Of a stretch of DNA of 64,000 nucleotides, positions 1-32,308 are shown piece by piece (position 1 is the first letter of the stretch; every line of letters begins with the position of its first letter). The stretch comes from Blastococcus sp. CT_GayMR20. GTDB lineage: Bacteria; Actinomycetota; Actinomycetes; Mycobacteriales; Geodermatophilaceae. The position numbers were made by a program, and so were the translations under genes. The notes under the pieces were generated by a model, which was not told the DNA's origin, did no database searches, and worked only from the letters and a program-made list of their open reading frames with translations. The DNA lies in the NCBI RefSeq assembly GCF_004570345.1, contig NZ_SPQM01000006.1:31731-95730 (forward strand), written 5' to 3'.

Positions 1-970
1 CGTCGACGTACCGGCCGCCGGCGGCGACCCCGGGAGGTGCGATCCCGTCGAGCCGCGCGAGGTCGTCGGCGGAGAGCCGGACGTCGGCGGCGGCGACGTT
101 CTCCTCGAGGTAGGTCCGCCGCTTGGTGCCCGGGATGGGGACGACGTCCTCTCCCTGGGCCAGCACCCAGGCCAGCGCCAGCTGACCCGGGGTCGTCCCC
201 TTCTCCTGCGCCATCGCCCGGACGGCCTCGACGAGGCGGAGGTTCACCGCGAAGGCCTCCCCGGTGAACCGCGGATGACCCCGCCGCCAGTCGTCCTCCC
301 CGAAGTCCTCGGGGCCGGTGATGGCGCCGGTCAGGAAGCCCCGGCCCAGCGGGCTGAAGGGGACGATGCCGATGCCGTGCTCGCGCGCGACGCCGAGCAC
401 TTCTGCCTCCAGGTCCCGCGTCCACAGCGACCACTCGCTCTGCAGGGCGGCGATCGGGTGCACGGCCACCGCCCGCCGGATCGATGCGGCGCTGGCCTCC
501 GACAGGCCGAGGTACCGGACCTTGCCCTGCTCGACGAGCTCGGCCAGCGCACCGACCGTGTCCTCGATCGGCACCTTCCGGTCCACGCGGTGCTGGTAGT
601 AGAGGTCGATCACGTCCACCTTCAGCCGTCGCAGGCTGTCCTCCACGCGCGCACGCACGTTCTCCGGGCGGCCGTCGATGCGCTGGCCGCCGTCCTCGGT
701 CCGGCTGATCGCGAACTTCGTGGCGAGCTGGACATCGTCCCGGCGGCCGGCGATCGCCTCCCCGACCAGCTCCTCGTTGTGCCCGTCGCCGTAGACGTCG
801 GAGGTGTCGAGGAACGTGACCCCCAGGTCCAGGGCCCGGTGGATCGTCGCGATCGACTCCTTCCGGTCGGCGGCGCCGTACATCTGGCTCATGCCCATGC
901 AGCCGAGGCCGAGCGAGGAGACGGTCAGGCCGGTCAGGCCGAGCGTGCGGGTGCCGACGGAGGGACTCAT
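1..970 (-). CDS. Aldo/keto reductase, left-arm copy cut at the window start
   Basis: Mirror copy of the complete gene at 31301-32308. The ATG at 970 and the N-terminal 323 codons are present; the last 12 codons fall beyond base 1. An NADPH-dependent oxidoreductase of the TIM-barrel aldo/keto reductase superfamily is predicted. It is divergent from cbs, with about 100 bp between the two start codons. Confidence 0.85.
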
Positions 971-1072
971 GCCCGCATCCTCGTGCGTCGCCACCCGGGC
1001 CCGCCACCGGCCCCTCTGGTGGAATGGTCGAGCTGGGTGCCGACCGCCGGCAGCCGACAAGGAGGCCCTTCG

Positions 1073-2467
1073 TTGGAGTACGCCGAGTCCGTCGTCGACC
1101 TGGTCGGCAACACCCCGCTGGTGCGCCTCACCTCGGTGACCAGCTCCCTGGGCCCCGACGCGCCGCTGGTGCTGGCGAAGCTCGAGTACCTCAACCCGGG
1201 CGGATCGGTGAAGGACCGCATCGCCGTCCGGATGGTCGACGCCGCCGAGGCGAGCGGTGCGCTGAAGCCGGGCGGGACGATCGTGGAGCCGACCAGCGGC
1301 AACACCGGCATCGGGCTCGCCCTCGTCGCCCAGCAGCGCGGCTACAGCTGCATCTTCATCTGTCCCGACAAGGTGGGCCAGGAGAAGATCAACGTGCTGA
1401 AGGCCTACGGCGCCGAGGTCGTCGTCTGCCCGACCGCCGTCGACCCGTCCGATCCGCGGTCGTACTACTCGGTCTCCGACCGGCTCGCCCGCGAGACGCC
1501 GGGCGGCTGGAAGCCCGACCAGTACTCGAACCCGGCGAACCCGCAGTCGCACTACGAGACGACCGGCCCGGAGATCTGGGCGCAGACCGAGGGCCGGATC
1601 ACCACCTTCGTCACGGGCATGGGCACCGGCGGCACGATCAGCGGGATCGGGCGCTACCTCAAGGAGGCGTCCGGCGGTCGCGTGCGCGTCGTCGGCGCCG
1701 ACCCCGAGGGCTCGGTCTACTCCGGGGGCACCGGCCGCCCGTACCTGGTGGAGGGCGTCGGCGAGGATTTCTGGCCGTCCACGTACGACCGCGAGATCGC
1801 CGACGAGATCATCCCCGTGTCCGACGGCGACTCCTTCGCGATGACCCGGCGGCTGGCCCGGGAGGAGGGGCTGCTGGTCGGCGGCTCCTGCGGGATGGCC
1901 GTCGTCGCCGCGGTGAAGGCAGCGAGGAAGCTCACCAGGGACGACGTCATGGTGGTGCTGCTCCCGGACGGCGGCCGCGGCTACCTCAACAAGATCTTCA
2001 GCGACAAGTGGATGGCCGACTACGGCTTCCTCGACTCCGCCTCGGGCACCACGGTCGGCGAGCTCCTGCACACCAAGTCCGGCGAGACCCCGACGCTGGT
2101 GCACACGCATCCGAACGAGACCGTCCGCGACGCGATCAACATCCTCCGCGAGTACGGCGTCAGCCAGCTGCCGGTGGTGCGCGCGGAGCCCCCGGTGACG
2201 GCCGGCGAGGTCGTCGGCTCGGTCGACGAGAAGACCCTGCTCGACTCGCTCTTCGCCGGCCGGGCCAGCCTCGCCGACCGGGTGGAGAAGCACATGTCCC
2301 CGCCGCTGCCGATCATCGGCTCCGGGGAGGAGGTCGGCGCGGCGGTCGCCGCGCTCGGCTCCGCCGACGCGCTCGTGGTGCACGTCGACGGCAAGCCGGC
2401 CGGCGTCGTCACCCGCCAGGACGTGCTCGGCCACCTGGCGGGGCTCGGGCATACGGTCGGCCCATGA
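1073..2467 (+). CDS. cbs: Cystathionine beta-synthase
   Basis: Condenses serine (or O-acetylserine) with homocysteine to form cystathionine, the first step of reverse transsulfuration; cytosolic and PLP-dependent. The PLP lysine is K47 in [10 protein letters not shown], followed by the phosphate-binding TSGNTGI and a glycine-rich GTGGTISG loop. Two CBS domains follow from about residue 330 to the end. The length of 464 residues is the same as I recall for M. tuberculosis Cbs (Rv1077), longer than plain CysK proteins, which lack CBS domains. I chose the TTG at 1073 because AAGGAGG lies 7 nt upstream; longer frames upstream are antisense to the reductase. The stop overlaps the metB start (ATGA), so the two are translationally coupled. 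Confidence 0.93.
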
Positions 2468-3645
2468 GCGGCTTCAACACGCGGGCGATCCACGCCGGGC
2501 AGGAACCGGACCCGGCGACCGGGGCGGTGATCCTGCCCGTCCACCTCACCACCACCTACAAGCAGGACGGCGTGGGCGGCCTGCGCGGCGGCTACGAGTA
2601 CAGCCGCAGCGGCAACCCGACCCGGACGGCGCTGCACGAGGCGCTGGCCGCGCTGGAGGAGGGCACCACGGCGCTGGCCTTCGCCTCCGGCCTCGCCGCT
2701 GAGGACACCCTGCTGCGGACCGCCTGCCGTCCCGGCGACCACGTCGTCCTCGGGGGCGACGCGTACGGCGGGACGTTCCGGCTCATCTCCCGCGTGCTGT
2801 CGGAGTGGGGTCTGGAGTACACGCCCGTCCACCTCGACGACCCCGACGCGGTGCGCGCGGCGATCCGGCCGACCACCCGCGTCGTCTGGTGCGAGACCCC
2901 GAGCAACCCGCTGCTCAACATCACCGACATCGAACTCACCGCGGCGGTCGCGCACGAGGCCGGCGCGCTGCTCGTCGTCGACAACACCTTCGCCTCGCCC
3001 TACCTGCAGCGGCCGCTCACCCTCGGCGCGGACGTCGTCGTCCACTCGACGACCAAGTACCTCGGCGGGCACTCGGACGTCGTCGGTGGCGCACTGATCA
3101 CGCGGGACACCGGCCTCGGCGAGCGCCTGGCCTACAACCACAACGCGATGGGCGCGGTGGCGAGCCCCTTCGACTCGTGGCTGGTGCTGCGCAGCCTCAA
3201 GACGCTGGGCGTCCGGATGGACCGGCACTCGGCCAACGCCGCACGGGTGGCCGAGTACCTGCTCGACCACCCGGCGGTCTCGGGCGTGCTGTACCCGGGG
3301 CTCCCGACCCACCCCGGGCACGACGTCGCCGCGAAGCAGATGGCCGGCTTCGGCGGGATGGTCTCGTTCCGGCTGAGGGACGGCGAGGACGCCGCACTGA
3401 AGGTGTGCGAGCGGGCGCAGCTGTTCACGCTGGCGGAGTCGCTGGGCGGCGTGGAGTCGCTGATCGAGCATCCGGGCCGCATGACGCACGCGAGCGCGGC
3501 CGGTTCGCCGCTGGAGGTGCCGGCCGACCTGGTGCGCCTCTCGGTCGGCATCGAGGACGTCGACGACCTCCTGGCCGACCTGGAGCAGGCCCTGGCTGAG
3601 CGCGGCGCCGTCAGCAGAAGGGCCCCCGTCAGAGCGGAAGCGTGA
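2464..3645 (+). CDS. metB: Cystathionine gamma-synthase / trans-sulfuration enzyme
   Basis: Cys/Met metabolism PLP enzyme of 393 residues. It acts on cystathionine, as a gamma-synthase or gamma-lyase, in methionine-cysteine interconversion. Visible features are the N-terminal NTRAIHAGQ, the YSRSGNPT substrate motif, [16 protein letters not shown] and the PLP lysine K198 in [11 protein letters not shown]. It follows cbs with an ATGA overlap, the same pairing as Rv1077-Rv1079 of M. tuberculosis, so together they make a transsulfuration operon. Synthase and lyase cannot be separated by sequence alone here. The 3' end overlaps the convergent map gene by 17 bp. Confidence 0.9.
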
Positions 3646-4399
3646 GAATCCTGGGGCCGTCCTCGGTGACGGCGACCGTGTGCTCGACGTGGGCGGCCCG
3701 GCTGCCGTCGGCGCTGCGCAGCGTCCAGCCGTCCGCGTCGACCCGGTAGTCGTCGCTCCCGCCGGCCAGGAACCAGGGCTCGATGGCGATGACCAGGCCG
3801 GGCCGCAGCGGGACCCCTCGCCCCGCCCGGCCCTCGTTCGGTACGTGCGGGGCCTCGTGCATCGTCCGGCCGACGCCGTGACCGCCCTGGTCGGTGTTGA
3901 TCCCGCACCCGCCGGCGCGGCCCACGGCGCCGATGGCCGCGGAGACGTCGCCGACCCGGTTGCCCACGACGGCCGCCGCGATACCGGCCTCGAGCGCGCG
4001 TTCCGCGGTGGCCACGAGCGACAGGTCCTCCGGTCGCGGCGTGCCCACCGGGAACGTGATCGCGGCGTCGCCGACCCACCCGTCGAGCGTGGCGCCCGCG
4101 TCGACGCTGAGCAGATCGCCGTCCCCGAGGACGTCCGGCGAGGGGACGCCGTGCAGCGCGACGTCGTTGACCGACAGGCAGACCACGCCCGGGAACGGCG
4201 GCGTGGTGGCCGCCGGGGCATAGCCGAGGAACGGCGAGGTGGCTCCCGCCGCGGCGAGGACATCCCGGGCGACGGCGTCGAGCCGGGTCAGCCGGACGCC
4301 CGGCGCCGCGGCCGCCCGGACGGCGGCCAGCATGTCGGCGACCACCGCACCGGCGGCGCGCATGGCCTCCAGCTCGCCAGGCGTGCGCAGCTCGATCAC
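3629..4399 (-). CDS. map: Methionine aminopeptidase, type I
   Basis: Removes the initiator methionine from nascent proteins; a cytosolic metalloenzyme of 256 residues. The five metal ligands can be placed: two aspartates in DAGATLDGWVGDAA, the histidine in GGHGVGRTMHE, and glutamates in AIEPW and HVEHTVAV. The GTG at 4399 is preceded by AAGGAG at good spacing and gives the usual N-terminus (VIELRTPGELEAMRAAG); an upstream in-frame ATG at 4435 would add 12 atypical residues. Actinobacteria often have more than one Map, so this may be a secondary paralogue. Convergent with metB. Confidence 0.92.
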   Translation of the reverse strand: MIELRTPGELEAMRAAGAVVADMLAAVRAAAAPGVRLTRLDAVARDVLAAAGATSPFLGYAPAATTPPFPGVVCLSVNDVALHGVPSPDVLGDGDLLSVDAGATLDGWVGDAAITFPVGTPRPEDLSLVATAERALEAGIAAAVVGNRVGDVSAAIGAVGRAGGCGINTDQGGHGVGRTMHEAPHVPNEGRAGRGVPLRPGLVIAIEPWFLAGGSDDYRVDADGWTLRSADGSRAAHVEHTVAVTEDGPRILTLPL

Positions 4400-4439
4400 G
4401 GGAACTCCTTCCGGTCTGACCGTCCCGGTCTTCAAGGGA

Positions 4440-4488
4440 CCCCATCCTCCTCACCCCTCGCAAGCTCGGGGCGAGCCTCTGGATGGGC
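4440..4488. repeat. Intergenic palindromic repeat, copy A
   Basis: Core CCTCCTCACCCCTCGCA followed by a TCGGGGCGAG half and CTCTGGA, bounded by cccatcc and ggatggg. The CTCGC/GCGAG arms can form a hairpin. The same core recurs at 6082-6137. It lies between the divergent starts of map and the SMR gene, so it is not simply a terminator. Confidence 0.6.
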
Positions 4489-4586
4489 GGCCGGCTGGGC
4501 GCCCTGCTGCAGGCCGCTGCGGGAATCGAACCCCGGCGGAGGTCGCCTGGCCGTATCTGCCGCCGACGCCGGGCGCTCCTCCCGGC

Positions 4587-4910
4587 ATGGTCTTCCTGGT
4601 CGTCACCGTCGTGGCCGACGTGGCCGGCGTCGTCCTGCTGGGCGCGGCCCGGGGACTGGAGCGGCCGGCCCTCCTGCTCGCCGGGCTGCTGCTGCTCCTG
4701 TTCGGCTTCGTGATGTTCTCGTACGCCACACGGACGGTCCCGGCAGGTCTGGCCAACGCGGTGTGGGCCGGGGCGAGCATCGTGCTGGTGGTCCTCCTCG
4801 GCCGGATCTTCCTGAGCGAGACGATCTCGGCGGCGCAGTACGTCTGCCTGGGCCTGATCCTCGCCGGCACGCTGGGTATCTACCTCCTCGGCCGCGCACC
4901 GGTGTCATGA
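4587..4910 (+). CDS. Small multidrug resistance (SMR) family transporter
   Basis: A 107-residue protein with four hydrophobic segments: about residues 3-20, 28-46, 55-75 and 85-102. The length and layout fit EmrE/SugE/MdtJI-type SMR transporters, which act as dimers in the inner membrane and exchange protons for cations. The essential membrane glutamate of EmrE (E14) aligns with D11 in VVADVAGV, a conservative but unusual replacement. The stop overlaps the start of the decarboxylase gene (ATGA). This suggests that the pair makes and exports an amine, as MdtJI exports spermidine. The start codon has no clear Shine-Dalgarno sequence and is the first ATG giving a complete first helix. Confidence 0.75.
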   Translation: MVFLVVTVVADVAGVVLLGAARGLERPALLLAGLLLLLFGFVMFSYATRTVPAGLANAVWAGASIVLVVLLGRIFLSETISAAQYVCLGLILAGTLGIYLLGRAPVS

Positions 4911-6079
4911 CCAGCGTCACCGAGTCCACGTGGACCGTCCCGACTCCCGCCCAGCTGGGCACCGAACTGGCCGCCATCGACCTGCCGGCACTGGTCGGGC
5001 GGCACGGCACGCCGCTGCTGGTGCTGGACCCGGCGAGGATCGCCGAGCAGTACCGGGCACTGCGCCGGGCGCTGCCGGACGTGCGGCCGTACTACGCGGT
5101 GAAGGCCCTGTCGCACCGGGCGGCGCTGGCCGCGGTCCGCGACGAGGGCGGCTTCTTCGACGTCGCCTCTCCTCGGGAGGTCGCGCTGGTGACGGAGCTG
5201 GGCGTGGCCCCGGACCGGTGCATCTACACCCACCCGGTCAAGAAGCCGGCGGACGTCGCGGCAGCGGTGCGGTCGGGCATCCGGACGTTCGTCTTCGACA
5301 ACGAGGCGGAGCTGGACAAGTTCGCCGGCCTCGAGCACGACGTCGAGCTGCTGCTGAGGCTCCAGTACCGCACGCCGCAGGCGCTCATCGACCTGTCCTA
5401 CAAGTACGGCGCCCGGCCTGACGAAGCCCTCGATCTCCTTCGGACCGCGCAGCAGAAGGGCCTGCGGGTGACCGGCCTGTCGTTCCACCCCGGCAGCCAG
5501 CTGGCGAGCGCCGAGCCGCTGCTCCAGGACATCCAGCACGCGGCGATGCTGATCGACTGCCTGGCCGACGTGGGCGTGGACCTGGACGTCCTCGACATCG
5601 GCGGGGGCCTGCCGGTGCCCTACGACGCGGCCGTGCCGCACCTGGACAGCTTCGTGTCGGCGATCGCGGAGGAGATCCGCCCACTGACCCGACGCGGCAT
5701 CCAGGTGATCTCCGAACCGGGGCGGTTCGTGGCCGCGCCCGCCATGCTGGCCGTGGCCGGCGTCGTGGGGGTCACCCGGCGCGGGGGGATGCCCTGGTAC
5801 TACCTGGACGACGGCCTCTACGGCAGCTTCTCGAACGTGCTGAGCGACCACGTCCACCCCACGGTCTACGCGTACGACGCGGGGCTCGAGGAGCGGGAGA
5901 CCCTCCCCAGCGTCCTGGCCGGCCCGACCTGCGACAGCACCGACGTGATCACCACCAGCGCGATGCTGCCGGCGATGGAGGTCGGCGACCTGGTGGTGGC
6001 GCCGTTCATGGGGGCCTACACCAGCGTGACGGCCTGCGAGTTCAACGGCCTGCCGAAAGCCACCGTGGTCGTCGTCTGA
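4907..6079 (+). CDS. Ornithine/lysine decarboxylase-like PLP enzyme (fold type III)
   Basis: A 390-residue alanine-racemase-fold decarboxylase. The PLP lysine is K66 in YYAVKALSH. FHPGSQ, DIGGGLPVPYD and EPGRFVAAP follow in family order. The dimer-completing cysteine lies in PTCDSTD, and GAYTSVTACEFNG matches the eukaryotic-type ornithine decarboxylase C-terminus. CDSTD rather than CESGD argues against diaminopimelate decarboxylase. The likely product is putrescine or cadaverine; substrate choice cannot be read from sequence. It is translationally coupled to the SMR transporter and convergent with the ABM gene, with a palindromic repeat between. Confidence 0.85.
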   Translation: MTSVTESTWTVPTPAQLGTELAAIDLPALVGRHGTPLLVLDPARIAEQYRALRRALPDVRPYYAVKALSHRAALAAVRDEGGFFDVASPREVALVTELGVAPDRCIYTHPVKKPADVAAAVRSGIRTFVFDNEAELDKFAGLEHDVELLLRLQYRTPQALIDLSYKYGARPDEALDLLRTAQQKGLRVTGLSFHPGSQLASAEPLLQDIQHAAMLIDCLADVGVDLDVLDIGGGLPVPYDAAVPHLDSFVSAIAEEIRPLTRRGIQVISEPGRFVAAPAMLAVAGVVGVTRRGGMPWYYLDDGLYGSFSNVLSDHVHPTVYAYDAGLEERETLPSVLAGPTCDSTDVITTSAMLPAMEVGDLVVAPFMGAYTSVTACEFNGLPKATVVVV

Positions 6080-6081
6080 CA

Positions 6082-6137
6082 GAGGCCCCCCTCCTCCTCA
6101 CCCCTCGCAGTCTCGGGCGAGCCTCTGGAGGCGGCCT
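6082..6137. repeat. Intergenic palindromic repeat, copy B (also a likely convergent terminator)
   Basis: Shares the CCTCCTCACCCCTCGCA core, CGAGCCTCTGGA half and internal CTCGC/GCGAG arms with copy A at 4440. Outer arms (ggcccccctcc and ggaggcggcc) extend the hairpin. It fills the whole gap between two convergent stop codons, where it could terminate both genes. Confidence 0.6.
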
Positions 6138-6446
6138 TCAGCCTGTGGGCCCGACGATGAACAGCGGGCGGAAGTGCTCGACGACGGGGAACGGGTCGTA
6201 GAAGGAGTGCAGCAGGCGCCGCCACTCCTGGTATCCCGGCGAGCCCCGGAAACCCTCCGTGTGGTCCTCGAGACGGTTCCACTCGACGAGCAGGAGGAAC
6301 ACGTTGTCCCGCTCCGTGCACCGCGACAGCAGCAGCCGCCGGAAGCCCGGCGACGAGGAGATGATCGGGGAAGCGGCCCGGAACGCCGCCTCGAACTCGG
6401 CCTCGCGGCCCGGGGTCACCGACAGCTCGGCGTGCTCGAGGATCAC
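6138..6446 (-). CDS. Antibiotic-biosynthesis-monooxygenase (ABM) domain protein
   Basis: A 102-residue ferredoxin-like-fold protein with the pattern of YgiN/ABM proteins: a start strand (ILEHAELSV), GREAEFEAAF helix, SSPGFRRLLLSRC, LLVEWNRLEDH and a C-terminal HFRPLF. Family members are small dimeric oxygenases or stress proteins; no specific substrate can be assigned. The GTG start is chosen because TAACCT sits 7 nt upstream, the spacing of a leaderless transcript. An ATG 57 nt upstream is possible but has no ribosome site. Divergent from the VOC gene. Confidence 0.7.
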   Translation of the reverse strand: MILEHAELSVTPGREAEFEAAFRAASPIISSSPGFRRLLLSRCTERDNVFLLLVEWNRLEDHTEGFRGSPGYQEWRRLLHSFYDPFPVVEHFRPLFIVGPTG

Positions 6447-6521
6447 CCGGCGGAGGTTACGGGGAAGCAGGAGCCGGTCAGCGCGGTTGTCGCCAGGCAG
6501 CATCGAACGAGGAGGAACGCC

Positions 6522-7022
6522 GTGAGCACCACCGAGAGCAGCGACCTGGCCGCCCAGGAGCGCGCCCGCATCCGCGAGGTCCACCTCAAGCCCGCAGGAG
6601 AGCGACCGTCGTCGACGGCCCGCGGCCTGCACCACACCGCCCTGATCAGCAGCGACGTCGAGCGCACGGTGCGCTTCTACCAGGACGTGCTGGGCTTTCC
6701 GCTGACCGAGCTGATCGAGAACCGCGACTATCCGGGCTCCTCCCACTTCTTCTTCGACATCGGCAACGGCAACCTGCTCGCCTTCTTCGACTTCCCCGGC
6801 CTCGACGTCGGCCCGTACGCCGAGGTCCTCGGCGGGCTGCACCACATGGCCATCAGCGTCGACCCCGACCGCTGGGCGAAGCTGGTCGAGCGGCTCACCG
6901 AGGCCGGCGTCGAGCACGAGGTGCACAGCGGCGTCTCGGTCTACTTCCGTGACCCCGACGGCGCCCGCATCGAGCTGATCGCCGACCCGCTCGGCGAGAT
7001 GTACGGCCAGCACGTCCTCTGA
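6522..7022 (+). CDS. VOC-superfamily (glyoxalase/extradiol dioxygenase fold) protein
   Basis: A 166-residue protein with paired beta-alpha-beta-beta-beta modules. First module: LHHTALISSDVERTVRFYQ; second: LHHMAISVD through YFRDPDGARIELIADP. Conserved metal-ligand positions are present (histidines of the HHTA and HHMA strands, glutamate in RIELI). Such proteins include lyases, dioxygenases and thiol-transfer enzymes; the exact reaction is unknown. The GTG start has GAGGAGG about 7 nt upstream. nhaA starts 19 bp after its stop, so the two are likely co-transcribed. Confidence 0.78.
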   Translation: MSTTESSDLAAQERARIREVHLKPAGERPSSTARGLHHTALISSDVERTVRFYQDVLGFPLTELIENRDYPGSSHFFFDIGNGNLLAFFDFPGLDVGPYAEVLGGLHHMAISVDPDRWAKLVERLTEAGVEHEVHSGVSVYFRDPDGARIELIADPLGEMYGQHVL

Positions 7023-7041
7023 CGCAAGCCGCTCCCCCGAC

Positions 7042-8421
7042 GTGACGCAGCCGCCCCGTCCCGGCCCGGCCTCCCGAGTCTCCCTCCCGGCCCTCTCGCC
7101 GTCCTCGAAGCTCTACGTGGGCACCGAGGCCGGCGGCTCCGCCCTGCTCCTCGTGGCCACCCTCACGGCGCTGCTGTGGGCCAACTCCCCGTGGTCCGGC
7201 TCCTACGACGCGTTCTGGTCGACGACCGCCACCATCGGCGTCGGCGACCTGGCGCTGTCCATGGACCTCGAGCACTGGGTCAACGACGCCGCGATGGCGC
7301 TGTTCTTCCTGGTCGTCGGCCTGGAGATCACCCGCGAGGTGTCCACGGGCGAACTGCGCGACCGGCGGAACGTGGCGGCGCCGGCCCTCGGCGCCCTCGG
7401 CGGCCTGCTCGTGCCGGCCGCCGTCTACCTCGCCGTGAACCCCTCGGGCCCGGCCAGCGCCGGCTGGGGCATCGTCATGTCCACGGACACGGCGTTCGTC
7501 CTCGGCATCCTCGCGCTGTTCGGCCCGCGGTGCCCGGACCGGCTGCGGCTCTTCCTGCTCACCCTCGCGATCGTCGACGACATCGGTGCCATCTCCGTCA
7601 TGGCGCTCGTCTACAGCGGGAACCTCGGCCTGACCGCCCTGGCCGTCTCCGGCGTGCTGGTCGCCGTCCTGGTGGGTCTCCGGTGGCTGGGTGTCTGGCG
7701 GCTGGCGCCCTACGTGGTCACCGGCATCGCGCTGTGGCTCGCCGTCCATGCCTCGGGCGTGCACGCCACGCTGGCCGGCGTCCTTGTGGGGCTGCTGCTG
7801 CCGTCGAAGCCGACGGCGCCGGAAGTGCTCGATCGCACCCGCGACTACGGCCGTGCGCTCCGCGAGGCGCCCGACCCGCAGCGGGCCCAGCTGGCCCGCC
7901 TCGCCGTCGCCGCCACCGTTCCGGCCGGCGCCCGGCTGCAGCAGACGCTGCACCGGTGGACCGCCTACGGCGTCGTCCCTGTCTTCGGTCTGGCCAACGC
8001 GGGTGTCCCGCTCGACCTCGAGACCCTGCGGACGGCGGCGACGTCGCCGGTGACCCTGGGCATCGCGGCCGCCCTCGTCGTCGGCAACGCGATCGGCATC
8101 ACCGCCGGTGCCGCGGTCGCGCTGCGCACGGGCTGGGGCACGCTGCCCGGCGGCGTCCGCTGGTCGCACCTGATGGCCGGCGCGACGCTGGCCGGCATCG
8201 GCTTCACGATCTCGCTGTTCATCACCGATCTGGCGTTCACCGACGAGCGGCTGCGCGAGCAGGCGACCATCGGCATCCTCGCCGGCTCAGTGGTGGCAGC
8301 GGTCGCCGGTGTCGTCCTGCTCCGCGTCCTCGGCGAGCGCTTCTCGCTGTGCTCGCCGGAGTCCGAGGGGCCACCGGCGCTGCCGCCGCGGCCCTGGCTC
8401 GAGCCCTCCGTTCCCGCCTGA
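7042..8421 (+). CDS. nhaA: Na+/H+ antiporter NhaA
   Basis: Electrogenic sodium/proton exchanger of the inner membrane, used in sodium and alkaline pH tolerance; 459 residues. It has the family's long series of membrane helices. The transport motif is LAIVDDIGAIS with the aspartate pair D179-D180, and STDTAFVLGIL forms the unwound TM4 region. The last membrane helix ends near VLLRVLGERF, and a polar proline-rich tail follows. That tail overlaps the convergent DsbA-like gene by 135 bp. Some actinobacterial NhaA proteins carry a fused DsbA/thioredoxin domain, so this neighbour is probably not random. Confidence 0.93.
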   Translation: MTQPPRPGPASRVSLPALSPSSKLYVGTEAGGSALLLVATLTALLWANSPWSGSYDAFWSTTATIGVGDLALSMDLEHWVNDAAMALFFLVVGLEITREVSTGELRDRRNVAAPALGALGGLLVPAAVYLAVNPSGPASAGWGIVMSTDTAFVLGILALFGPRCPDRLRLFLLTLAIVDDIGAISVMALVYSGNLGLTALAVSGVLVAVLVGLRWLGVWRLAPYVVTGIALWLAVHASGVHATLAGVLVGLLLPSKPTAPEVLDRTRDYGRALREAPDPQRAQLARLAVAATVPAGARLQQTLHRWTAYGVVPVFGLANAGVPLDLETLRTAATSPVTLGIAAALVVGNAIGITAGAAVALRTGWGTLPGGVRWSHLMAGATLAGIGFTISLFITDLAFTDERLREQATIGILAGSVVAAVAGVVLLRVLGERFSLCSPESEGPPALPPRPWLEPSVPA

Positions 8422-8937
8422 CACGGCGCGGCGCAGGGCGCCGAGCTCCATCCGGCCGGAGAAACGGCGGCCGTCGACGAGGACGGTCGGCGTGCCGGCG
8501 ACCCCGGCGGCCAGGCCGGCCGCGAAGTCGGCCTCGATCTTGTCACCGAACGGCTGCGCGGCCTGGCCGACCACCCGGTCGCCGTCCAGCCCGAGCTCCT
8601 CGGCGTAGGCGCGCAGGGCGGCGTCGTCGAGTCGCTCCTGCCGGACGAACAGGAGGTCGTGCATGGGCCAGAAGCCTCCTTGCGCGCCGGCCGCCTCCGC
8701 CGCGAGGGCGGCGGTCAATGCATACGGATGGCGCTCGGCCAGGGGGAAGTGCCGGAAGACCAGGCGGATCCCGCCGTCGGACTCCTCGACGAGGCGGCGG
8801 AGCACCGGCGCCGCGGCCGCGCAGTACGGGCACTCGTAGTCGCCGTACTCGACGACCGTGACCGGCGCCCCGGGATTCCCGAGCACGTGCTCGCCCGGCA
8901 GCCGCCGGACGGCGCTCTCCTCGGGGGTTGCCGTCAC
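8287..8937 (-). CDS. DsbA/thioredoxin-fold disulfide oxidoreductase-like protein
   Basis: A 216-residue DsbA-family protein with catalytic CPYC at residues 36-39 (EYGDYECPYCAAAAP) and a cis-Pro loop in VAGTPTVLVDG. No signal peptide is visible, so it may be cytosolic or act in a reducing pathway. The GTG start overlaps the stop of the small GNAT gene upstream (GTGA). The recognisable domain ends near ELGALRRAV. The remaining 44 residues (arginine- and glutamine-rich, ending CHH) are read antisense to the nhaA 3' end and look like run-on after loss of the original stop. Confidence 0.8.
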   Translation of the reverse strand: MTATPEESAVRRLPGEHVLGNPGAPVTVVEYGDYECPYCAAAAPVLRRLVEESDGGIRLVFRHFPLAERHPYALTAALAAEAAGAQGGFWPMHDLLFVRQERLDDAALRAYAEELGLDGDRVVGQAAQPFGDKIEADFAAGLAAGVAGTPTVLVDGRRFSGRMELGALRRAVSGGNGGLEPGPRRQRRWPLGLRRAQREALAEDAEQDDTGDRCHH

Positions 8938-9224: not shown

Positions 9225-9254
9225 GCCGACGCCAACGGTTGCCCGGCGGCCGCT

Positions 9255-9303: not shown

Positions 9304-9310
9304 TTCGTCG

Positions 9311-22960: not shown

Positions 22961-22967
22961 CGACGAA

Positions 22968-23016: not shown

Positions 23017-23046
23017 AGCGGCCGCCGGGCAACCGTTGGCGTCGGC

Positions 23047-23337: not shown

Positions 23338-23984
23338 CGGCAACCCCCGAGGAGAGCGCCGTCCGGCGGCTGCCGGGCGAGCACGTGCTCGGGAATCCCG
23401 GGGCGCCGGTCACGGTCGTCGAGTACGGCGACTACGAGTGCCCGTACTGCGCGGCCGCGGCGCCGGTGCTCCGCCGCCTCGTCGAGGAGTCCGACGGCGG
23501 GATCCGCCTGGTCTTCCGGCACTTCCCCCTGGCCGAGCGCCATCCGTATGCATTGACCGCCGCCCTCGCGGCGGAGGCGGCCGGCGCGCAAGGAGGCTTC
23601 TGGCCCATGCACGACCTCCTGTTCGTCCGGCAGGAGCGACTCGACGACGCCGCCCTGCGCGCCTACGCCGAGGAGCTCGGGCTGGACGGCGACCGGGTGG
23701 TCGGCCAGGCCGCGCAGCCGTTCGGTGACAAGATCGAGGCCGACTTCGCGGCCGGCCTGGCCGCCGGGGTCGCCGGCACGCCGACCGTCCTCGTCGACGG
23801 CCGCCGTTTCTCCGGCCGGATGGAGCTCGGCGCCCTGCGCCGCGCCGTGTCAGGCGGGAACGGAGGGCTCGAGCCAGGGCCGCGGCGGCAGCGCCGGTGG
23901 CCCCTCGGACTCCGGCGAGCACAGCGAGAAGCGCTCGCCGAGGACGCGGAGCAGGACGACACCGGCGACCGCTGCCACCACTGA
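23334..23984 (+). CDS. DsbA/thioredoxin-fold protein, right-arm copy
   Basis: Identical to 8287-8937: CPYC active site, cis-Pro loop, and a 44-residue run-on tail antisense to nhaA. Confidence 0.8.
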   Translation: MTATPEESAVRRLPGEHVLGNPGAPVTVVEYGDYECPYCAAAAPVLRRLVEESDGGIRLVFRHFPLAERHPYALTAALAAEAAGAQGGFWPMHDLLFVRQERLDDAALRAYAEELGLDGDRVVGQAAQPFGDKIEADFAAGLAAGVAGTPTVLVDGRRFSGRMELGALRRAVSGGNGGLEPGPRRQRRWPLGLRRAQREALAEDAEQDDTGDRCHH

Positions 23985-25229
23985 GCCGGCGAGGATGCCG
24001 ATGGTCGCCTGCTCGCGCAGCCGCTCGTCGGTGAACGCCAGATCGGTGATGAACAGCGAGATCGTGAAGCCGATGCCGGCCAGCGTCGCGCCGGCCATCA
24101 GGTGCGACCAGCGGACGCCGCCGGGCAGCGTGCCCCAGCCCGTGCGCAGCGCGACCGCGGCACCGGCGGTGATGCCGATCGCGTTGCCGACGACGAGGGC
24201 GGCCGCGATGCCCAGGGTCACCGGCGACGTCGCCGCCGTCCGCAGGGTCTCGAGGTCGAGCGGGACACCCGCGTTGGCCAGACCGAAGACAGGGACGACG
24301 CCGTAGGCGGTCCACCGGTGCAGCGTCTGCTGCAGCCGGGCGCCGGCCGGAACGGTGGCGGCGACGGCGAGGCGGGCCAGCTGGGCCCGCTGCGGGTCGG
24401 GCGCCTCGCGGAGCGCACGGCCGTAGTCGCGGGTGCGATCGAGCACTTCCGGCGCCGTCGGCTTCGACGGCAGCAGCAGCCCCACAAGGACGCCGGCCAG
24501 CGTGGCGTGCACGCCCGAGGCATGGACGGCGAGCCACAGCGCGATGCCGGTGACCACGTAGGGCGCCAGCCGCCAGACACCCAGCCACCGGAGACCCACC
24601 AGGACGGCGACCAGCACGCCGGAGACGGCCAGGGCGGTCAGGCCGAGGTTCCCGCTGTAGACGAGCGCCATGACGGAGATGGCACCGATGTCGTCGACGA
24701 TCGCGAGGGTGAGCAGGAAGAGCCGCAGCCGGTCCGGGCACCGCGGGCCGAACAGCGCGAGGATGCCGAGGACGAACGCCGTGTCCGTGGACATGACGAT
24801 GCCCCAGCCGGCGCTGGCCGGGCCCGAGGGGTTCACGGCGAGGTAGACGGCGGCCGGCACGAGCAGGCCGCCGAGGGCGCCGAGGGCCGGCGCCGCCACG
24901 TTCCGCCGGTCGCGCAGTTCGCCCGTGGACACCTCGCGGGTGATCTCCAGGCCGACGACCAGGAAGAACAGCGCCATCGCGGCGTCGTTGACCCAGTGCT
25001 CGAGGTCCATGGACAGCGCCAGGTCGCCGACGCCGATGGTGGCGGTCGTCGACCAGAACGCGTCGTAGGAGCCGGACCACGGGGAGTTGGCCCACAGCAG
25101 CGCCGTGAGGGTGGCCACGAGGAGCAGGGCGGAGCCGCCGGCCTCGGTGCCCACGTAGAGCTTCGAGGACGGCGAGAGGGCCGGGAGGGAGACTCGGGAG
25201 GCCGGGCCGGGACGGGGCGGCTGCGTCAC
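23850..25229 (-). CDS. nhaA: Na+/H+ antiporter NhaA, right-arm copy
   Basis: Identical to 7042-8421 (459 residues, DD pair at 179-180). Convergent overlap of 135 bp with the DsbA-like gene. Confidence 0.93.
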   Translation of the reverse strand: MTQPPRPGPASRVSLPALSPSSKLYVGTEAGGSALLLVATLTALLWANSPWSGSYDAFWSTTATIGVGDLALSMDLEHWVNDAAMALFFLVVGLEITREVSTGELRDRRNVAAPALGALGGLLVPAAVYLAVNPSGPASAGWGIVMSTDTAFVLGILALFGPRCPDRLRLFLLTLAIVDDIGAISVMALVYSGNLGLTALAVSGVLVAVLVGLRWLGVWRLAPYVVTGIALWLAVHASGVHATLAGVLVGLLLPSKPTAPEVLDRTRDYGRALREAPDPQRAQLARLAVAATVPAGARLQQTLHRWTAYGVVPVFGLANAGVPLDLETLRTAATSPVTLGIAAALVVGNAIGITAGAAVALRTGWGTLPGGVRWSHLMAGATLAGIGFTISLFITDLAFTDERLREQATIGILAGSVVAAVAGVVLLRVLGERFSLCSPESEGPPALPPRPWLEPSVPA

Positions 25230-25248
25230 GTCGGGGGAGCGGCTTGCG

Positions 25249-25749
25249 TCAGAGGACGTGCTGGCCGTACATCTCGCCGAGCGGGTCGGCGATCAGCTCG
25301 ATGCGGGCGCCGTCGGGGTCACGGAAGTAGACCGAGACGCCGCTGTGCACCTCGTGCTCGACGCCGGCCTCGGTGAGCCGCTCGACCAGCTTCGCCCAGC
25401 GGTCGGGGTCGACGCTGATGGCCATGTGGTGCAGCCCGCCGAGGACCTCGGCGTACGGGCCGACGTCGAGGCCGGGGAAGTCGAAGAAGGCGAGCAGGTT
25501 GCCGTTGCCGATGTCGAAGAAGAAGTGGGAGGAGCCCGGATAGTCGCGGTTCTCGATCAGCTCGGTCAGCGGAAAGCCCAGCACGTCCTGGTAGAAGCGC
25601 ACCGTGCGCTCGACGTCGCTGCTGATCAGGGCGGTGTGGTGCAGGCCGCGGGCCGTCGACGACGGTCGCTCTCCTGCGGGCTTGAGGTGGACCTCGCGGA
25701 TGCGGGCGCGCTCCTGGGCGGCCAGGTCGCTGCTCTCGGTGGTGCTCAC
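25249..25749 (-). CDS. VOC-superfamily protein, right-arm copy
   Basis: Identical to 6522-7022 (166 residues). The GTG start has GAGGAGG upstream; nhaA follows 19 bp after the stop. Confidence 0.78.
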   Translation of the reverse strand: MSTTESSDLAAQERARIREVHLKPAGERPSSTARGLHHTALISSDVERTVRFYQDVLGFPLTELIENRDYPGSSHFFFDIGNGNLLAFFDFPGLDVGPYAEVLGGLHHMAISVDPDRWAKLVERLTEAGVEHEVHSGVSVYFRDPDGARIELIADPLGEMYGQHVL

Positions 25750-25811
25750 GGCGTTCCTCCTCGTTCGATGCTGCCTGGCGACAACCGCGCTGACCGGCTC
25801 CTGCTTCCCCG

Positions 25812-25817
25812 TAACCT
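25812..25817 (+). promoter_or_regulatory. -10 box of the ABM gene, probable leaderless start
   Basis: TAACCT, 7 nt before the GTG at 25825. The left-arm mirror is 6454-6459. Confidence 0.5.
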
Positions 25818-25824
25818 CCGCCGG

Positions 25825-26133
25825 GTGATCCTCGAGCACGCCGAGCTGTCGGTGACCCCGGGCCGCGAGGCCGAGTTCGAGGCGGCGTTCCGGGCCGCTT
25901 CCCCGATCATCTCCTCGTCGCCGGGCTTCCGGCGGCTGCTGCTGTCGCGGTGCACGGAGCGGGACAACGTGTTCCTCCTGCTCGTCGAGTGGAACCGTCT
26001 CGAGGACCACACGGAGGGTTTCCGGGGCTCGCCGGGATACCAGGAGTGGCGGCGCCTGCTGCACTCCTTCTACGACCCGTTCCCCGTCGTCGAGCACTTC
26101 CGCCCGCTGTTCATCGTCGGGCCCACAGGCTGA
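25825..26133 (+). CDS. ABM-domain protein, right-arm copy
   Basis: Identical to 6138-6446 (102 residues); leaderless-type GTG start. Confidence 0.7.
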   Translation: MILEHAELSVTPGREAEFEAAFRAASPIISSSPGFRRLLLSRCTERDNVFLLLVEWNRLEDHTEGFRGSPGYQEWRRLLHSFYDPFPVVEHFRPLFIVGPTG

Positions 26134-26189
26134 AGGCCGCCTCCAGAGGCTCGCCCGAGACTGCGAGGGGTGAGGAGGAGGGGGGCCTC
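26134..26189. repeat. Intergenic palindromic repeat, copy B, right arm
   Basis: Mirror of 6082-6137; lies between convergent ABM and decarboxylase stops. Confidence 0.6.
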
Positions 26190-26191
26190 TG

Positions 26192-27364
26192 TCAGACGAC
26201 GACCACGGTGGCTTTCGGCAGGCCGTTGAACTCGCAGGCCGTCACGCTGGTGTAGGCCCCCATGAACGGCGCCACCACCAGGTCGCCGACCTCCATCGCC
26301 GGCAGCATCGCGCTGGTGGTGATCACGTCGGTGCTGTCGCAGGTCGGGCCGGCCAGGACGCTGGGGAGGGTCTCCCGCTCCTCGAGCCCCGCGTCGTACG
26401 CGTAGACCGTGGGGTGGACGTGGTCGCTCAGCACGTTCGAGAAGCTGCCGTAGAGGCCGTCGTCCAGGTAGTACCAGGGCATCCCCCCGCGCCGGGTGAC
26501 CCCCACGACGCCGGCCACGGCCAGCATGGCGGGCGCGGCCACGAACCGCCCCGGTTCGGAGATCACCTGGATGCCGCGTCGGGTCAGTGGGCGGATCTCC
26601 TCCGCGATCGCCGACACGAAGCTGTCCAGGTGCGGCACGGCCGCGTCGTAGGGCACCGGCAGGCCCCCGCCGATGTCGAGGACGTCCAGGTCCACGCCCA
26701 CGTCGGCCAGGCAGTCGATCAGCATCGCCGCGTGCTGGATGTCCTGGAGCAGCGGCTCGGCGCTCGCCAGCTGGCTGCCGGGGTGGAACGACAGGCCGGT
26801 CACCCGCAGGCCCTTCTGCTGCGCGGTCCGAAGGAGATCGAGGGCTTCGTCAGGCCGGGCGCCGTACTTGTAGGACAGGTCGATGAGCGCCTGCGGCGTG
26901 CGGTACTGGAGCCTCAGCAGCAGCTCGACGTCGTGCTCGAGGCCGGCGAACTTGTCCAGCTCCGCCTCGTTGTCGAAGACGAACGTCCGGATGCCCGACC
27001 GCACCGCTGCCGCGACGTCCGCCGGCTTCTTGACCGGGTGGGTGTAGATGCACCGGTCCGGGGCCACGCCCAGCTCCGTCACCAGCGCGACCTCCCGAGG
27101 AGAGGCGACGTCGAAGAAGCCGCCCTCGTCGCGGACCGCGGCCAGCGCCGCCCGGTGCGACAGGGCCTTCACCGCGTAGTACGGCCGCACGTCCGGCAGC
27201 GCCCGGCGCAGTGCCCGGTACTGCTCGGCGATCCTCGCCGGGTCCAGCACCAGCAGCGGCGTGCCGTGCCGCCCGACCAGTGCCGGCAGGTCGATGGCGG
27301 CCAGTTCGGTGCCCAGCTGGGCGGGAGTCGGGACGGTCCACGTGGACTCGGTGACGCTGGTCAT
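26192..27364 (-). CDS. Ornithine/lysine decarboxylase-like enzyme, right-arm copy
   Basis: Identical to 4907-6079 (390 residues): PLP lysine K66, PTCDSTD, EPGR. The start overlaps the SMR stop. Confidence 0.85.
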   Translation of the reverse strand: MTSVTESTWTVPTPAQLGTELAAIDLPALVGRHGTPLLVLDPARIAEQYRALRRALPDVRPYYAVKALSHRAALAAVRDEGGFFDVASPREVALVTELGVAPDRCIYTHPVKKPADVAAAVRSGIRTFVFDNEAELDKFAGLEHDVELLLRLQYRTPQALIDLSYKYGARPDEALDLLRTAQQKGLRVTGLSFHPGSQLASAEPLLQDIQHAAMLIDCLADVGVDLDVLDIGGGLPVPYDAAVPHLDSFVSAIAEEIRPLTRRGIQVISEPGRFVAAPAMLAVAGVVGVTRRGGMPWYYLDDGLYGSFSNVLSDHVHPTVYAYDAGLEERETLPSVLAGPTCDSTDVITTSAMLPAMEVGDLVVAPFMGAYTSVTACEFNGLPKATVVVV

Positions 27365-27684
27365 GACACCGGTGCGCGGCCGAGGAGGTAGATACCCAGC
27401 GTGCCGGCGAGGATCAGGCCCAGGCAGACGTACTGCGCCGCCGAGATCGTCTCGCTCAGGAAGATCCGGCCGAGGAGGACCACCAGCACGATGCTCGCCC
27501 CGGCCCACACCGCGTTGGCCAGACCTGCCGGGACCGTCCGTGTGGCGTACGAGAACATCACGAAGCCGAACAGGAGCAGCAGCAGCCCGGCGAGCAGGAG
27601 GGCCGGCCGCTCCAGTCCCCGGGCCGCGCCCAGCAGGACGACGCCGGCCACGTCGGCCACGACGGTGACGACCAGGAAGACCAT
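27361..27684 (-). CDS. SMR-family transporter, right-arm copy
   Basis: Identical to 4587-4910 (107 residues, four helices, D11 in place of the EmrE glutamate). Confidence 0.75.
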   Translation of the reverse strand: MVFLVVTVVADVAGVVLLGAARGLERPALLLAGLLLLLFGFVMFSYATRTVPAGLANAVWAGASIVLVVLLGRIFLSETISAAQYVCLGLILAGTLGIYLLGRAPVS

Positions 27685-27782
27685 GCCGGGAGGAGCGCCC
27701 GGCGTCGGCGGCAGATACGGCCAGGCGACCTCCGCCGGGGTTCGATTCCCGCAGCGGCCTGCAGCAGGGCGCCCAGCCGGCC

Positions 27783-27831
27783 GCCCATCCAGAGGCTCGC
27801 CCCGAGCTTGCGAGGGGTGAGGAGGATGGGG
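27783..27831. repeat. Intergenic palindromic repeat, copy A, right arm
   Basis: Mirror of 4440-4488; between divergent SMR and map starts. Confidence 0.6.
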
Positions 27832-27871
27832 TCCCTTGAAGACCGGGACGGTCAGACCGGAAGGAGTTCCC

Positions 27872-28642
27872 GTGATCGAGCTGCGCACGCCTGGCGAGCT
27901 GGAGGCCATGCGCGCCGCCGGTGCGGTGGTCGCCGACATGCTGGCCGCCGTCCGGGCGGCCGCGGCGCCGGGCGTCCGGCTGACCCGGCTCGACGCCGTC
28001 GCCCGGGATGTCCTCGCCGCGGCGGGAGCCACCTCGCCGTTCCTCGGCTATGCCCCGGCGGCCACCACGCCGCCGTTCCCGGGCGTGGTCTGCCTGTCGG
28101 TCAACGACGTCGCGCTGCACGGCGTCCCCTCGCCGGACGTCCTCGGGGACGGCGATCTGCTCAGCGTCGACGCGGGCGCCACGCTCGACGGGTGGGTCGG
28201 CGACGCCGCGATCACGTTCCCGGTGGGCACGCCGCGACCGGAGGACCTGTCGCTCGTGGCCACCGCGGAACGCGCGCTCGAGGCCGGTATCGCGGCGGCC
28301 GTCGTGGGCAACCGGGTCGGCGACGTCTCCGCGGCCATCGGCGCCGTGGGCCGCGCCGGCGGGTGCGGGATCAACACCGACCAGGGCGGTCACGGCGTCG
28401 GCCGGACGATGCACGAGGCCCCGCACGTACCGAACGAGGGCCGGGCGGGGCGAGGGGTCCCGCTGCGGCCCGGCCTGGTCATCGCCATCGAGCCCTGGTT
28501 CCTGGCCGGCGGGAGCGACGACTACCGGGTCGACGCGGACGGCTGGACGCTGCGCAGCGCCGACGGCAGCCGGGCCGCCCACGTCGAGCACACGGTCGCC
28601 GTCACCGAGGACGGCCCCAGGATTCTCACGCTTCCGCTCTGA
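27872..28642 (+). CDS. map: Methionine aminopeptidase, type I, right-arm copy
   Basis: Identical to 3629-4399 (256 residues). AAGGAG at 27861-27866 precedes the GTG start. Confidence 0.92.
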   Translation: MIELRTPGELEAMRAAGAVVADMLAAVRAAAAPGVRLTRLDAVARDVLAAAGATSPFLGYAPAATTPPFPGVVCLSVNDVALHGVPSPDVLGDGDLLSVDAGATLDGWVGDAAITFPVGTPRPEDLSLVATAERALEAGIAAAVVGNRVGDVSAAIGAVGRAGGCGINTDQGGHGVGRTMHEAPHVPNEGRAGRGVPLRPGLVIAIEPWFLAGGSDDYRVDADGWTLRSADGSRAAHVEHTVAVTEDGPRILTLPL

Positions 28643-29807
28643 CGGGGGCCCTTCTGCTGACGGCGCCGCGCTCAGCCAGGGCCTGCTCCAGGTCGGCCAG
28701 GAGGTCGTCGACGTCCTCGATGCCGACCGAGAGGCGCACCAGGTCGGCCGGCACCTCCAGCGGCGAACCGGCCGCGCTCGCGTGCGTCATGCGGCCCGGA
28801 TGCTCGATCAGCGACTCCACGCCGCCCAGCGACTCCGCCAGCGTGAACAGCTGCGCCCGCTCGCACACCTTCAGTGCGGCGTCCTCGCCGTCCCTCAGCC
28901 GGAACGAGACCATCCCGCCGAAGCCGGCCATCTGCTTCGCGGCGACGTCGTGCCCGGGGTGGGTCGGGAGCCCCGGGTACAGCACGCCCGAGACCGCCGG
29001 GTGGTCGAGCAGGTACTCGGCCACCCGTGCGGCGTTGGCCGAGTGCCGGTCCATCCGGACGCCCAGCGTCTTGAGGCTGCGCAGCACCAGCCACGAGTCG
29101 AAGGGGCTCGCCACCGCGCCCATCGCGTTGTGGTTGTAGGCCAGGCGCTCGCCGAGGCCGGTGTCCCGCGTGATCAGTGCGCCACCGACGACGTCCGAGT
29201 GCCCGCCGAGGTACTTGGTCGTCGAGTGGACGACGACGTCCGCGCCGAGGGTGAGCGGCCGCTGCAGGTAGGGCGAGGCGAAGGTGTTGTCGACGACGAG
29301 CAGCGCGCCGGCCTCGTGCGCGACCGCCGCGGTGAGTTCGATGTCGGTGATGTTGAGCAGCGGGTTGCTCGGGGTCTCGCACCAGACGACGCGGGTGGTC
29401 GGCCGGATCGCCGCGCGCACCGCGTCGGGGTCGTCGAGGTGGACGGGCGTGTACTCCAGACCCCACTCCGACAGCACGCGGGAGATGAGCCGGAACGTCC
29501 CGCCGTACGCGTCGCCCCCGAGGACGACGTGGTCGCCGGGACGGCAGGCGGTCCGCAGCAGGGTGTCCTCAGCGGCGAGGCCGGAGGCGAAGGCCAGCGC
29601 CGTGGTGCCCTCCTCCAGCGCGGCCAGCGCCTCGTGCAGCGCCGTCCGGGTCGGGTTGCCGCTGCGGCTGTACTCGTAGCCGCCGCGCAGGCCGCCCACG
29701 CCGTCCTGCTTGTAGGTGGTGGTGAGGTGGACGGGCAGGATCACCGCCCCGGTCGCCGGGTCCGGTTCCTGCCCGGCGTGGATCGCCCGCGTGTTGAAGC
29801 CGCTCAT
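28626..29807 (-). CDS. metB: Cystathionine gamma-synthase, right-arm copy
   Basis: Identical to 2464-3645 (393 residues, PLP lysine K198). ATGA overlap with cbs. Confidence 0.9.
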
Positions 29808-31198
29808 GGGCCGACCGTATGCCCGAGCCCCGCCAGGTGGCCGAGCACGTCCTGGCGGGTGACGACGCCGGCCGGCTTGCCGTCGACGTGCACCACGAGC
29901 GCGTCGGCGGAGCCGAGCGCGGCGACCGCCGCGCCGACCTCCTCCCCGGAGCCGATGATCGGCAGCGGCGGGGACATGTGCTTCTCCACCCGGTCGGCGA
30001 GGCTGGCCCGGCCGGCGAAGAGCGAGTCGAGCAGGGTCTTCTCGTCGACCGAGCCGACGACCTCGCCGGCCGTCACCGGGGGCTCCGCGCGCACCACCGG
30101 CAGCTGGCTGACGCCGTACTCGCGGAGGATGTTGATCGCGTCGCGGACGGTCTCGTTCGGATGCGTGTGCACCAGCGTCGGGGTCTCGCCGGACTTGGTG
30201 TGCAGGAGCTCGCCGACCGTGGTGCCCGAGGCGGAGTCGAGGAAGCCGTAGTCGGCCATCCACTTGTCGCTGAAGATCTTGTTGAGGTAGCCGCGGCCGC
30301 CGTCCGGGAGCAGCACCACCATGACGTCGTCCCTGGTGAGCTTCCTCGCTGCCTTCACCGCGGCGACGACGGCCATCCCGCAGGAGCCGCCGACCAGCAG
30401 CCCCTCCTCCCGGGCCAGCCGCCGGGTCATCGCGAAGGAGTCGCCGTCGGACACGGGGATGATCTCGTCGGCGATCTCGCGGTCGTACGTGGACGGCCAG
30501 AAATCCTCGCCGACGCCCTCCACCAGGTACGGGCGGCCGGTGCCCCCGGAGTAGACCGAGCCCTCGGGGTCGGCGCCGACGACGCGCACGCGACCGCCGG
30601 ACGCCTCCTTGAGGTAGCGCCCGATCCCGCTGATCGTGCCGCCGGTGCCCATGCCCGTGACGAAGGTGGTGATCCGGCCCTCGGTCTGCGCCCAGATCTC
30701 CGGGCCGGTCGTCTCGTAGTGCGACTGCGGGTTCGCCGGGTTCGAGTACTGGTCGGGCTTCCAGCCGCCCGGCGTCTCGCGGGCGAGCCGGTCGGAGACC
30801 GAGTAGTACGACCGCGGATCGGACGGGTCGACGGCGGTCGGGCAGACGACGACCTCGGCGCCGTAGGCCTTCAGCACGTTGATCTTCTCCTGGCCCACCT
30901 TGTCGGGACAGATGAAGATGCAGCTGTAGCCGCGCTGCTGGGCGACGAGGGCGAGCCCGATGCCGGTGTTGCCGCTGGTCGGCTCCACGATCGTCCCGCC
31001 CGGCTTCAGCGCACCGCTCGCCTCGGCGGCGTCGACCATCCGGACGGCGATGCGGTCCTTCACCGATCCGCCCGGGTTGAGGTACTCGAGCTTCGCCAGC
31101 ACCAGCGGCGCGTCGGGGCCCAGGGAGCTGGTCACCGAGGTGAGGCGCACCAGCGGGGTGTTGCCGACCAGGTCGACGACGGACTCGGCGTACTCCAA
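29804..31198 (-). CDS. cbs: Cystathionine beta-synthase, right-arm copy
   Basis: Identical to 1073-2467 (464 residues, K47, two CBS domains). TTG start with AAGGAGG 7 nt upstream. Confidence 0.93.
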
Positions 31199-31300
31199 CG
31201 AAGGGCCTCCTTGTCGGCTGCCGGCGGTCGGCACCCAGCTCGACCATTCCACCAGAGGGGCCGGTGGCGGGCCCGGGTGGCGACGCACGAGGATGCGGGC

Positions 31301-32308
31301 ATGAGTCCCTCCGTCGGCACCCGCACGCTCGGCCTGACCGGCCTGACCGTCTCCTCGCTCGGCCTCGGCTGCATGGGCATGAGCCAGATGTACGGCGCCG
31401 CCGACCGGAAGGAGTCGATCGCGACGATCCACCGGGCCCTGGACCTGGGGGTCACGTTCCTCGACACCTCCGACGTCTACGGCGACGGGCACAACGAGGA
31501 GCTGGTCGGGGAGGCGATCGCCGGCCGCCGGGACGATGTCCAGCTCGCCACGAAGTTCGCGATCAGCCGGACCGAGGACGGCGGCCAGCGCATCGACGGC
31601 CGCCCGGAGAACGTGCGTGCGCGCGTGGAGGACAGCCTGCGACGGCTGAAGGTGGACGTGATCGACCTCTACTACCAGCACCGCGTGGACCGGAAGGTGC
31701 CGATCGAGGACACGGTCGGTGCGCTGGCCGAGCTCGTCGAGCAGGGCAAGGTCCGGTACCTCGGCCTGTCGGAGGCCAGCGCCGCATCGATCCGGCGGGC
31801 GGTGGCCGTGCACCCGATCGCCGCCCTGCAGAGCGAGTGGTCGCTGTGGACGCGGGACCTGGAGGCAGAAGTGCTCGGCGTCGCGCGCGAGCACGGCATC
31901 GGCATCGTCCCCTTCAGCCCGCTGGGCCGGGGCTTCCTGACCGGCGCCATCACCGGCCCCGAGGACTTCGGGGAGGACGACTGGCGGCGGGGTCATCCGC
32001 GGTTCACCGGGGAGGCCTTCGCGGTGAACCTCCGCCTCGTCGAGGCCGTCCGGGCGATGGCGCAGGAGAAGGGGACGACCCCGGGTCAGCTGGCGCTGGC
32101 CTGGGTGCTGGCCCAGGGAGAGGACGTCGTCCCCATCCCGGGCACCAAGCGGCGGACCTACCTCGAGGAGAACGTCGCCGCCGCCGACGTCCGGCTCTCC
32201 GCCGACGACCTCGCGCGGCTCGACGGGATCGCACCTCCCGGGGTCGCCGCCGGCGGCCGGTACGTCGACGCCGCCTACTCCTACGGCGACAGCCCGGAGC
32301 GGGCGTGA
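31301..32308 (+). CDS. Aldo/keto reductase, complete copy
   Basis: A 335-residue TIM-barrel oxidoreductase using NADPH. The catalytic tetrad is visible: D and Y in [16 protein letters not shown] in LATKFAI, H in YYQHRVD. The substrate loop and C-terminal [14 protein letters not shown] fit AKR13/IolS-like reductases of aldehydes or ketones. The ATG follows a GAGGA-containing leader; the gene is divergent from cbs. The palindrome limit visible in this window falls at 32270, 38 bp before the stop. The stop overlaps the start of the XdhC-like gene (GTGA), so the reductase, XdhC-like and kinase genes probably form one operon. Confidence 0.92.

Follow-up and report, generated by a model that had tools for sequence, protein, structure and literature searches.

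The stretch analysed here, referred to as the window, comprises 64,000 nucleotides of contig NZ_SPQM01000006.1 of Blastococcus sp. CT_GayMR20, and its left part is a large palindrome centred within the gene of a YlbL-type protease. In plus-strand coordinates, the window contains a left arm (1–16079), a spacer of 112 bases (16080–16191), a right arm (16192–32270) and a single-copy flank with native gene order (32271–64000). The first complete gene past the centre encodes a UPF0182 protein (16813–19812, plus strand, mirrored at 12459–15458; PF03699, E = 1.4e-290). Bases 1–16079 were found to be the exact reverse complement of bases 16192–32270, with 0 mismatches in 16,079, which bears out the arms, spacer and absence of drift given in a preliminary description made from the sequence alone. 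The 95% upper bound on divergence between the arms is about 1.9e-4 per base (3/16,079), and chance cannot explain so exact a match. Base 1 mirrors base 32270; the arm is therefore at least this long, its observed extent being dictated by where the window or contig begins on the left rather than by an observed boundary. Leaving the palindromic match itself aside, all 116 repeated 25-mer pairs detected in a window-wide count lie in, or within 60 bases of, tRNA genes. An exact mirror within one sequence, without divergence, is also the mark of palindromic contigs regarded as assembly artefacts; that definition concerns the contig end, and the mirror seen here reaches base 1 of the window. As described below, the left arm is most likely a spurious second copy.

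The native order of the locus was read from relatives. A search with the UPF0182 protein returned matches from Blastococcus, Geodermatophilus, Modestobacter and others, the best identities among those listed being 83–84% (up to 84% in Blastococcus), and 80 of the 167 confirmed loci were kept for comparison. With bases 16192–20192 as a DNA query, 111 of 112 genomes were matched in the family around the Blastococcus litoris locus, and the best long match was 84% identical. The closest relatives therefore differ in DNA by about 16% or more, as against no difference at all between the two arms. From base 16205 or 16174 to base 64000, about 48 kb, the window is collinear with the loci of Geodermatophilaceae bacterium URHB0062 and B. 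litoris, in pieces of 75–90% identity separated by gaps. In each of these two relatives, one unbroken matching piece runs across base 32270, and no breakpoint is found there. The right arm is, as far as can be told, the native copy. The left copy matches the same two relatives up to base 16198. The sequences lying upstream of YlbL in the two relatives gave no match to the window at E ≤ 1e-20, and a laxer comparison (E ≤ 1e-5; 19,509 and 19,663 bases upstream to the join) returned only matches of 37–61 bases. These short stretches, at 4437–4473 and 6071–6117 (mirrored at 27798–27834 and 26154–26200) and at 62185–62245, are 83–95% identical to the upstream sequence of the two relatives and are perhaps small dispersed repeats. 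A second long UPF0182 match lacking the YlbL flank was also observed in two of the genomes, G035 (C1:2600854-2603913, 85% identity) and G091 (C3:235582-238509, 82% identity), perhaps indicative of a paralogue or a mixed assembly.

The centre of the palindrome lies inside a gene. From base 16191 downward on the minus strand, the spacer and the left arm read continuously as QGFAEDSPSEDALEEGDALEAIDGRP... to EPC and a stop codon, corresponding to the C-terminal part of a YlbL-type PDZ/Lon-like protease (Pfam PDZ_2 and Lon_C) whose gene lies upstream of UPF0182. The open frame that contains this part (15584–16849, minus strand) is chimeric: about the last 60% of YlbL follows an antisense leader. 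The YlbL part amounts to about 201 residues, compared with 340 in the full-length protein P0001. The three best database matches, retrieved from 120 listed among 764 found, are all full-length (340, 343 and 367 residues; 95, 92 and 87% identity), and a comparison of their first 139–166 residues with the window gave nothing significant (best E = 0.89). The join thus deprives YlbL of its start and puts the fold-back sequence there instead.

The alignments to relatives locate the join precisely. When the left copy was read in the gene direction, its first 700 bases matched 76 of the 80 loci, and the alignment started no more than 17 bases from the join in 59 of the 76, at base 149 in one and at bases 253–351 in 16. 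A segment running through the join (16000–16900) matched 77 of the 80 loci on the strand of the YlbL gene, with alignments starting within the 36 bases before the join in 11 and after it in 66; in this orientation, no alignment to the 77 loci started before base 16156. Because the alignments start at or near the join, the 112 bases are native and run on into the left arm without a break; the only abnormal join is 16191|16192, where the alignments to relatives switch. The centre is thus neither a separate element nor an adapter. The preliminary description had missed this, treating as a spacer what reads as native coding sequence continuing the left arm, and had likewise missed that relatives run unbroken across base 32270.

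This finding bears directly on the possibility that the palindrome is the covalently closed hairpin end of a linear replicon that was read through. Hairpin ends do yield mirrored sequence. However, they are expected to have almost no unpaired loop and to lie at a replicon end, whereas the centre here is a 112-base, one-directional coding stretch of a conserved YlbL gene past which the relatives continue. A hairpin telomere was rejected on these grounds and is regarded as extremely improbable.

The bases on either side of the join suggest how it was made. The seven bases at 16192–16198 (CGACGAC, plus strand) are the reverse complement of those at 16073–16079 (GTCGTCG, plus strand); the former would be the microhomology shared by the native continuation and the fold-back, and the latter the putative site at which the 3' end annealed. 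The first 400 bases of the left copy were aligned with the 80 loci, and the 59 that aligned from base 20 or earlier, among them one (L036) whose contig ends at the join, were kept, whereas 21 with no match or a later start were dropped. When the native bases past 16191 in these relatives were compared at the exact position with the fold-back sequence CGACGACATCC..., seven bases were shared in 24 of the 59, six in one and four in 15, so that at least four were shared in 40/59. With a shift of up to three bases in either direction, which corrects small gaps and also raises chance matches, the corresponding numbers were 29, 2 and 25, or at least four bases in 56/59. A random join here shares at least seven bases with a probability of 0.0016 and at least four with a probability of 0.033 (200,000 draws). 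The likeliest overlap is probably seven bases, a value read from the relatives rather than from the organism's own bases. In addition, single-stranded DNA of bases 16073–16198, a stretch chosen with its paired ends included, folds with −38.6 kcal/mol against a mean of −32.95 (standard deviation 2.74) for shuffled sequences (z = −2.06; 5 of 200 shuffles fold as well), which weakly supports self-priming.

What process leaves such a junction? Multiple displacement amplification (MDA) is well documented in this respect. In a study of a single Escherichia coli cell amplified by MDA, 406 of 475 chimeras were reported to be inverted, 337 of these within 10 kb, and more than 70% of the junctions had 2–21 complementary bases (PMC1855051). 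A study of 36.7 million human MDA chimeras gives an overlap peak of 7 nt and a distance peak of 80–280 nt (PMC5372508). The arrangement in the window resembles the chimeras described in these two reports: the second segment is a nearby sequence in reverse complement, both sides are native, a short overlap is probable, and the 112 bases between the joined segments fall within the 80–280 nt peak. It differs from them in that amplification is presumed here, and the length of the overlap is deduced from relatives. Palindromic reads are likewise reported at 43.6 and 47.8% in two amplified sets from Arabidopsis, compared with 0.5% in an unamplified control (PMC6218980), and at 25.6–38.5% among the matched mitochondrial reads of amplified tardigrades (PMC13265396).

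Judged by the anatomy of the junction, synteny and the published chimera statistics, the palindrome is, with high confidence, an artefact and not a real duplication in the bacterium. The preliminary description had put forward a fold-back assembly or amplification chimera as its first explanation, and the single bad join inside YlbL, the probable microhomology of 4–7 bases and the 112-base loop all support it. It is likely that a fold-back (inverted) chimera formed in vitro, most probably during phi29 MDA of a single cell or low-input sample, and was then retained by the assembler. The exact microhomology, the enzyme and the assembler's part are, we infer, as follows. A strand would have been copied through UPF0182 into YlbL and halted after CTGCA-CGACGAC. 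Its freed 3' end would then have paired over about seven bases with the GTCGTCG that lies 112 bases upstream, either on the same strand or on a displaced one, and extension would have produced an exact reverse complement of the arm. The assembler would finally have chosen the chimeric path over the true start of YlbL, with the mirrored part reaching at least base 1 of the window. On this reading, the genuine locus would be single copy, with a YlbL start that is absent from the window, then the natively oriented 112 bases, then bases 16192–64000.

Several points weigh against the MDA explanation. At the exact position, 19 of the 59 relatives share only 0–2 bases with the fold-back, and three still share only 1–2 after the shift. 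The 59 relatives are not independent, and the overlap sits in a conserved Val-Val-Val (KVVVQGFA in the three closest proteins, DVVVQGFA in the chimeric frame). Seven-base sites with a reverse complement 80–280 bases upstream are common here, at 2,532 of 47,803 positions. The human study places the overlap peak at 12–13 nt once corrected for site abundance (PMC5372508), and the E. coli study ruled out hairpin self-priming as a major MDA route (PMC1855051), so that a displaced strand would be the likelier template here. That the sample was amplified with phi29 is itself something that we infer, and fold-back priming in the cell would leave an identical junction.

An artefact could also have formed without amplification, either as a fold-back or missed-adapter long read or by an assembler retracing its own reverse-complement path. 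Mirrored contigs, a point also in favour of the MDA explanation, have been reported in other drafts: those of cyanobacterial single-cell genomes were discarded as likely assembly artefacts (PMC12755884), and 81 palindromic contigs of Mycobacterium bovis drafts were ascribed to likely assembly error and removed (PMC9455707). The window shares with these an exact, many-gene mirror within one contig without divergence, and the arm stops at the window edge, which fits either explanation; unlike the contigs in those reports, described as half on half, the mirror here is followed by about 32 kb of single-copy flank. The central 112 bases are native sequence and not an adapter, and a missed sequencing adapter as the sole cause is disfavoured for this reason. 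The probable microhomology at the switch point favours priming over a blunt-end turn of the strand. An origin without amplification is thus considered unlikely, though less so than either the hairpin end or a real duplication.

Were the duplication real, a fork that broke or stalled in the cell would have been followed by fold-back synthesis starting from a short inverted repeat. The result would be a recent inverted duplication of at least 16 kb, off the terminus of a Geodermatophilaceae chromosome, with a truncated YlbL left at the join. In a survey of 1,368 complete circular genomes, five were reported to carry inverted repeats whose arms measure 8 kb or more, lie closer together than 10 kb and are 98% identical or better (PMC5345009), in line with the rarity of large natural inverted duplications noted in the preliminary description. 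Three of the five are Lactobacillus bulgaricus, with arms of 23–37.6 kb at the terminus, and two more strains of that organism were inferred from depth; the other two, of 8.7 and 9.4 kb, come from Streptococcus suis D9 and Magnetospirillum magneticum AMB-1 and lie off the terminus (PMC5345009), so that such a location is not impossible for a natural repeat. The same paper cites large repeats for circularised Streptomyces chromosomes and an engineered E. coli sbcCD RecA background (PMC5345009). For the L. delbrueckii ssp. bulgaricus repeats, the origin that it proposes is a short inverted repeat on which fold-back synthesis took place, a mechanism that gives the same centre as seen here, and those repeats resemble the palindrome in having long arms as well (PMC5345009). 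They are described, however, from complete circular chromosomes, at the terminus with a putative dif site, and with fragmented pseudogenes and deletions (PMC5345009), none of which was seen in the window, where 16,079 bases are unchanged. No second junction is visible in the window.

The position relative to dif was examined in seven of the 112 genomes, picked for having the locus on a long first contig, using a dif pattern with up to three mismatches. A single dif-like site was found in each of the seven, with no control matches; in six, the record starts no more than 1.6 kb from dnaA, and in the seventh, G035, dnaA is at 3.23 Mb. By subtraction, the locus is about 1.54 Mb from the dif-like site in G015, 1.38 Mb in G017, 1.07 Mb in G027, 1.61 Mb in G050, 1.29 Mb in G063 and 2.01 Mb in G089, and in G035 the distance is about 1.3 Mb, calculated across the record start with a rounded genome size. 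The distance is thus about 1.07–2.01 Mb in 7/7 relatives, and the window itself contains no dif-like site at up to three mismatches. If the organism shares the gene order of these relatives, the locus is not a terminus locus. A terminus repeat of the L. bulgaricus type was rejected on position. Natural large inverted repeats exist, off the terminus too, but are rare in the survey (PMC5345009), and they do not alter the odds for an artefact; a real duplication is considered very unlikely. If it were true, its arms would be longer than either off-terminus repeat in the surveyed genomes (PMC5345009).

The finding matters for quality control: the left 16 kb should be masked or discarded, along with any gene counts derived from it. 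The left arm would inflate these counts by two extra tRNA-Met genes, cbs, metB, map, nhaA, UPF0182 and the chimeric YlbL frame. Duplication of two initiator tRNA genes, cbs-metB, map and nhaA had been expected in the preliminary description if the palindrome were real; two tRNA-Met genes per arm are indeed present, and Pfam matches fit cbs (PALP and CBS), metB (Cys_Met_Meta_PP), map (Peptidase_M24) and nhaA (Na_H_antiport_1), whereas the initiator label depends on an anticodon stem that has three G:C pairs and on a mismatch, C1:T72, both observed in the sequences, which we take to be marks of initiator tRNAs. The left arm is cut by the window edge within an open frame, presumably aldo/keto-reductase-like.

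The tRNA-Met(CAT) genes lie at 9310–9384 and 12315–12389 in the left arm and at 19882–19956 and 22887–22961 in the right arm. The two genes of each arm differ at 2 of 75 bases and are about 3 kb apart, and the pair looks native, because some relatives have a second tRNA match a few kilobases from the first. Between them lies a gene for an SNF2/DEAD-type helicase (10030–12288, minus strand, mirrored in the right arm). The helicase stretch has no long DNA match in the two collinear relatives, in which the space between the flanking matches is 4.4 and 9.0 kb, compared with about 2.4 kb here, and it may be a variable region between the tRNA genes.

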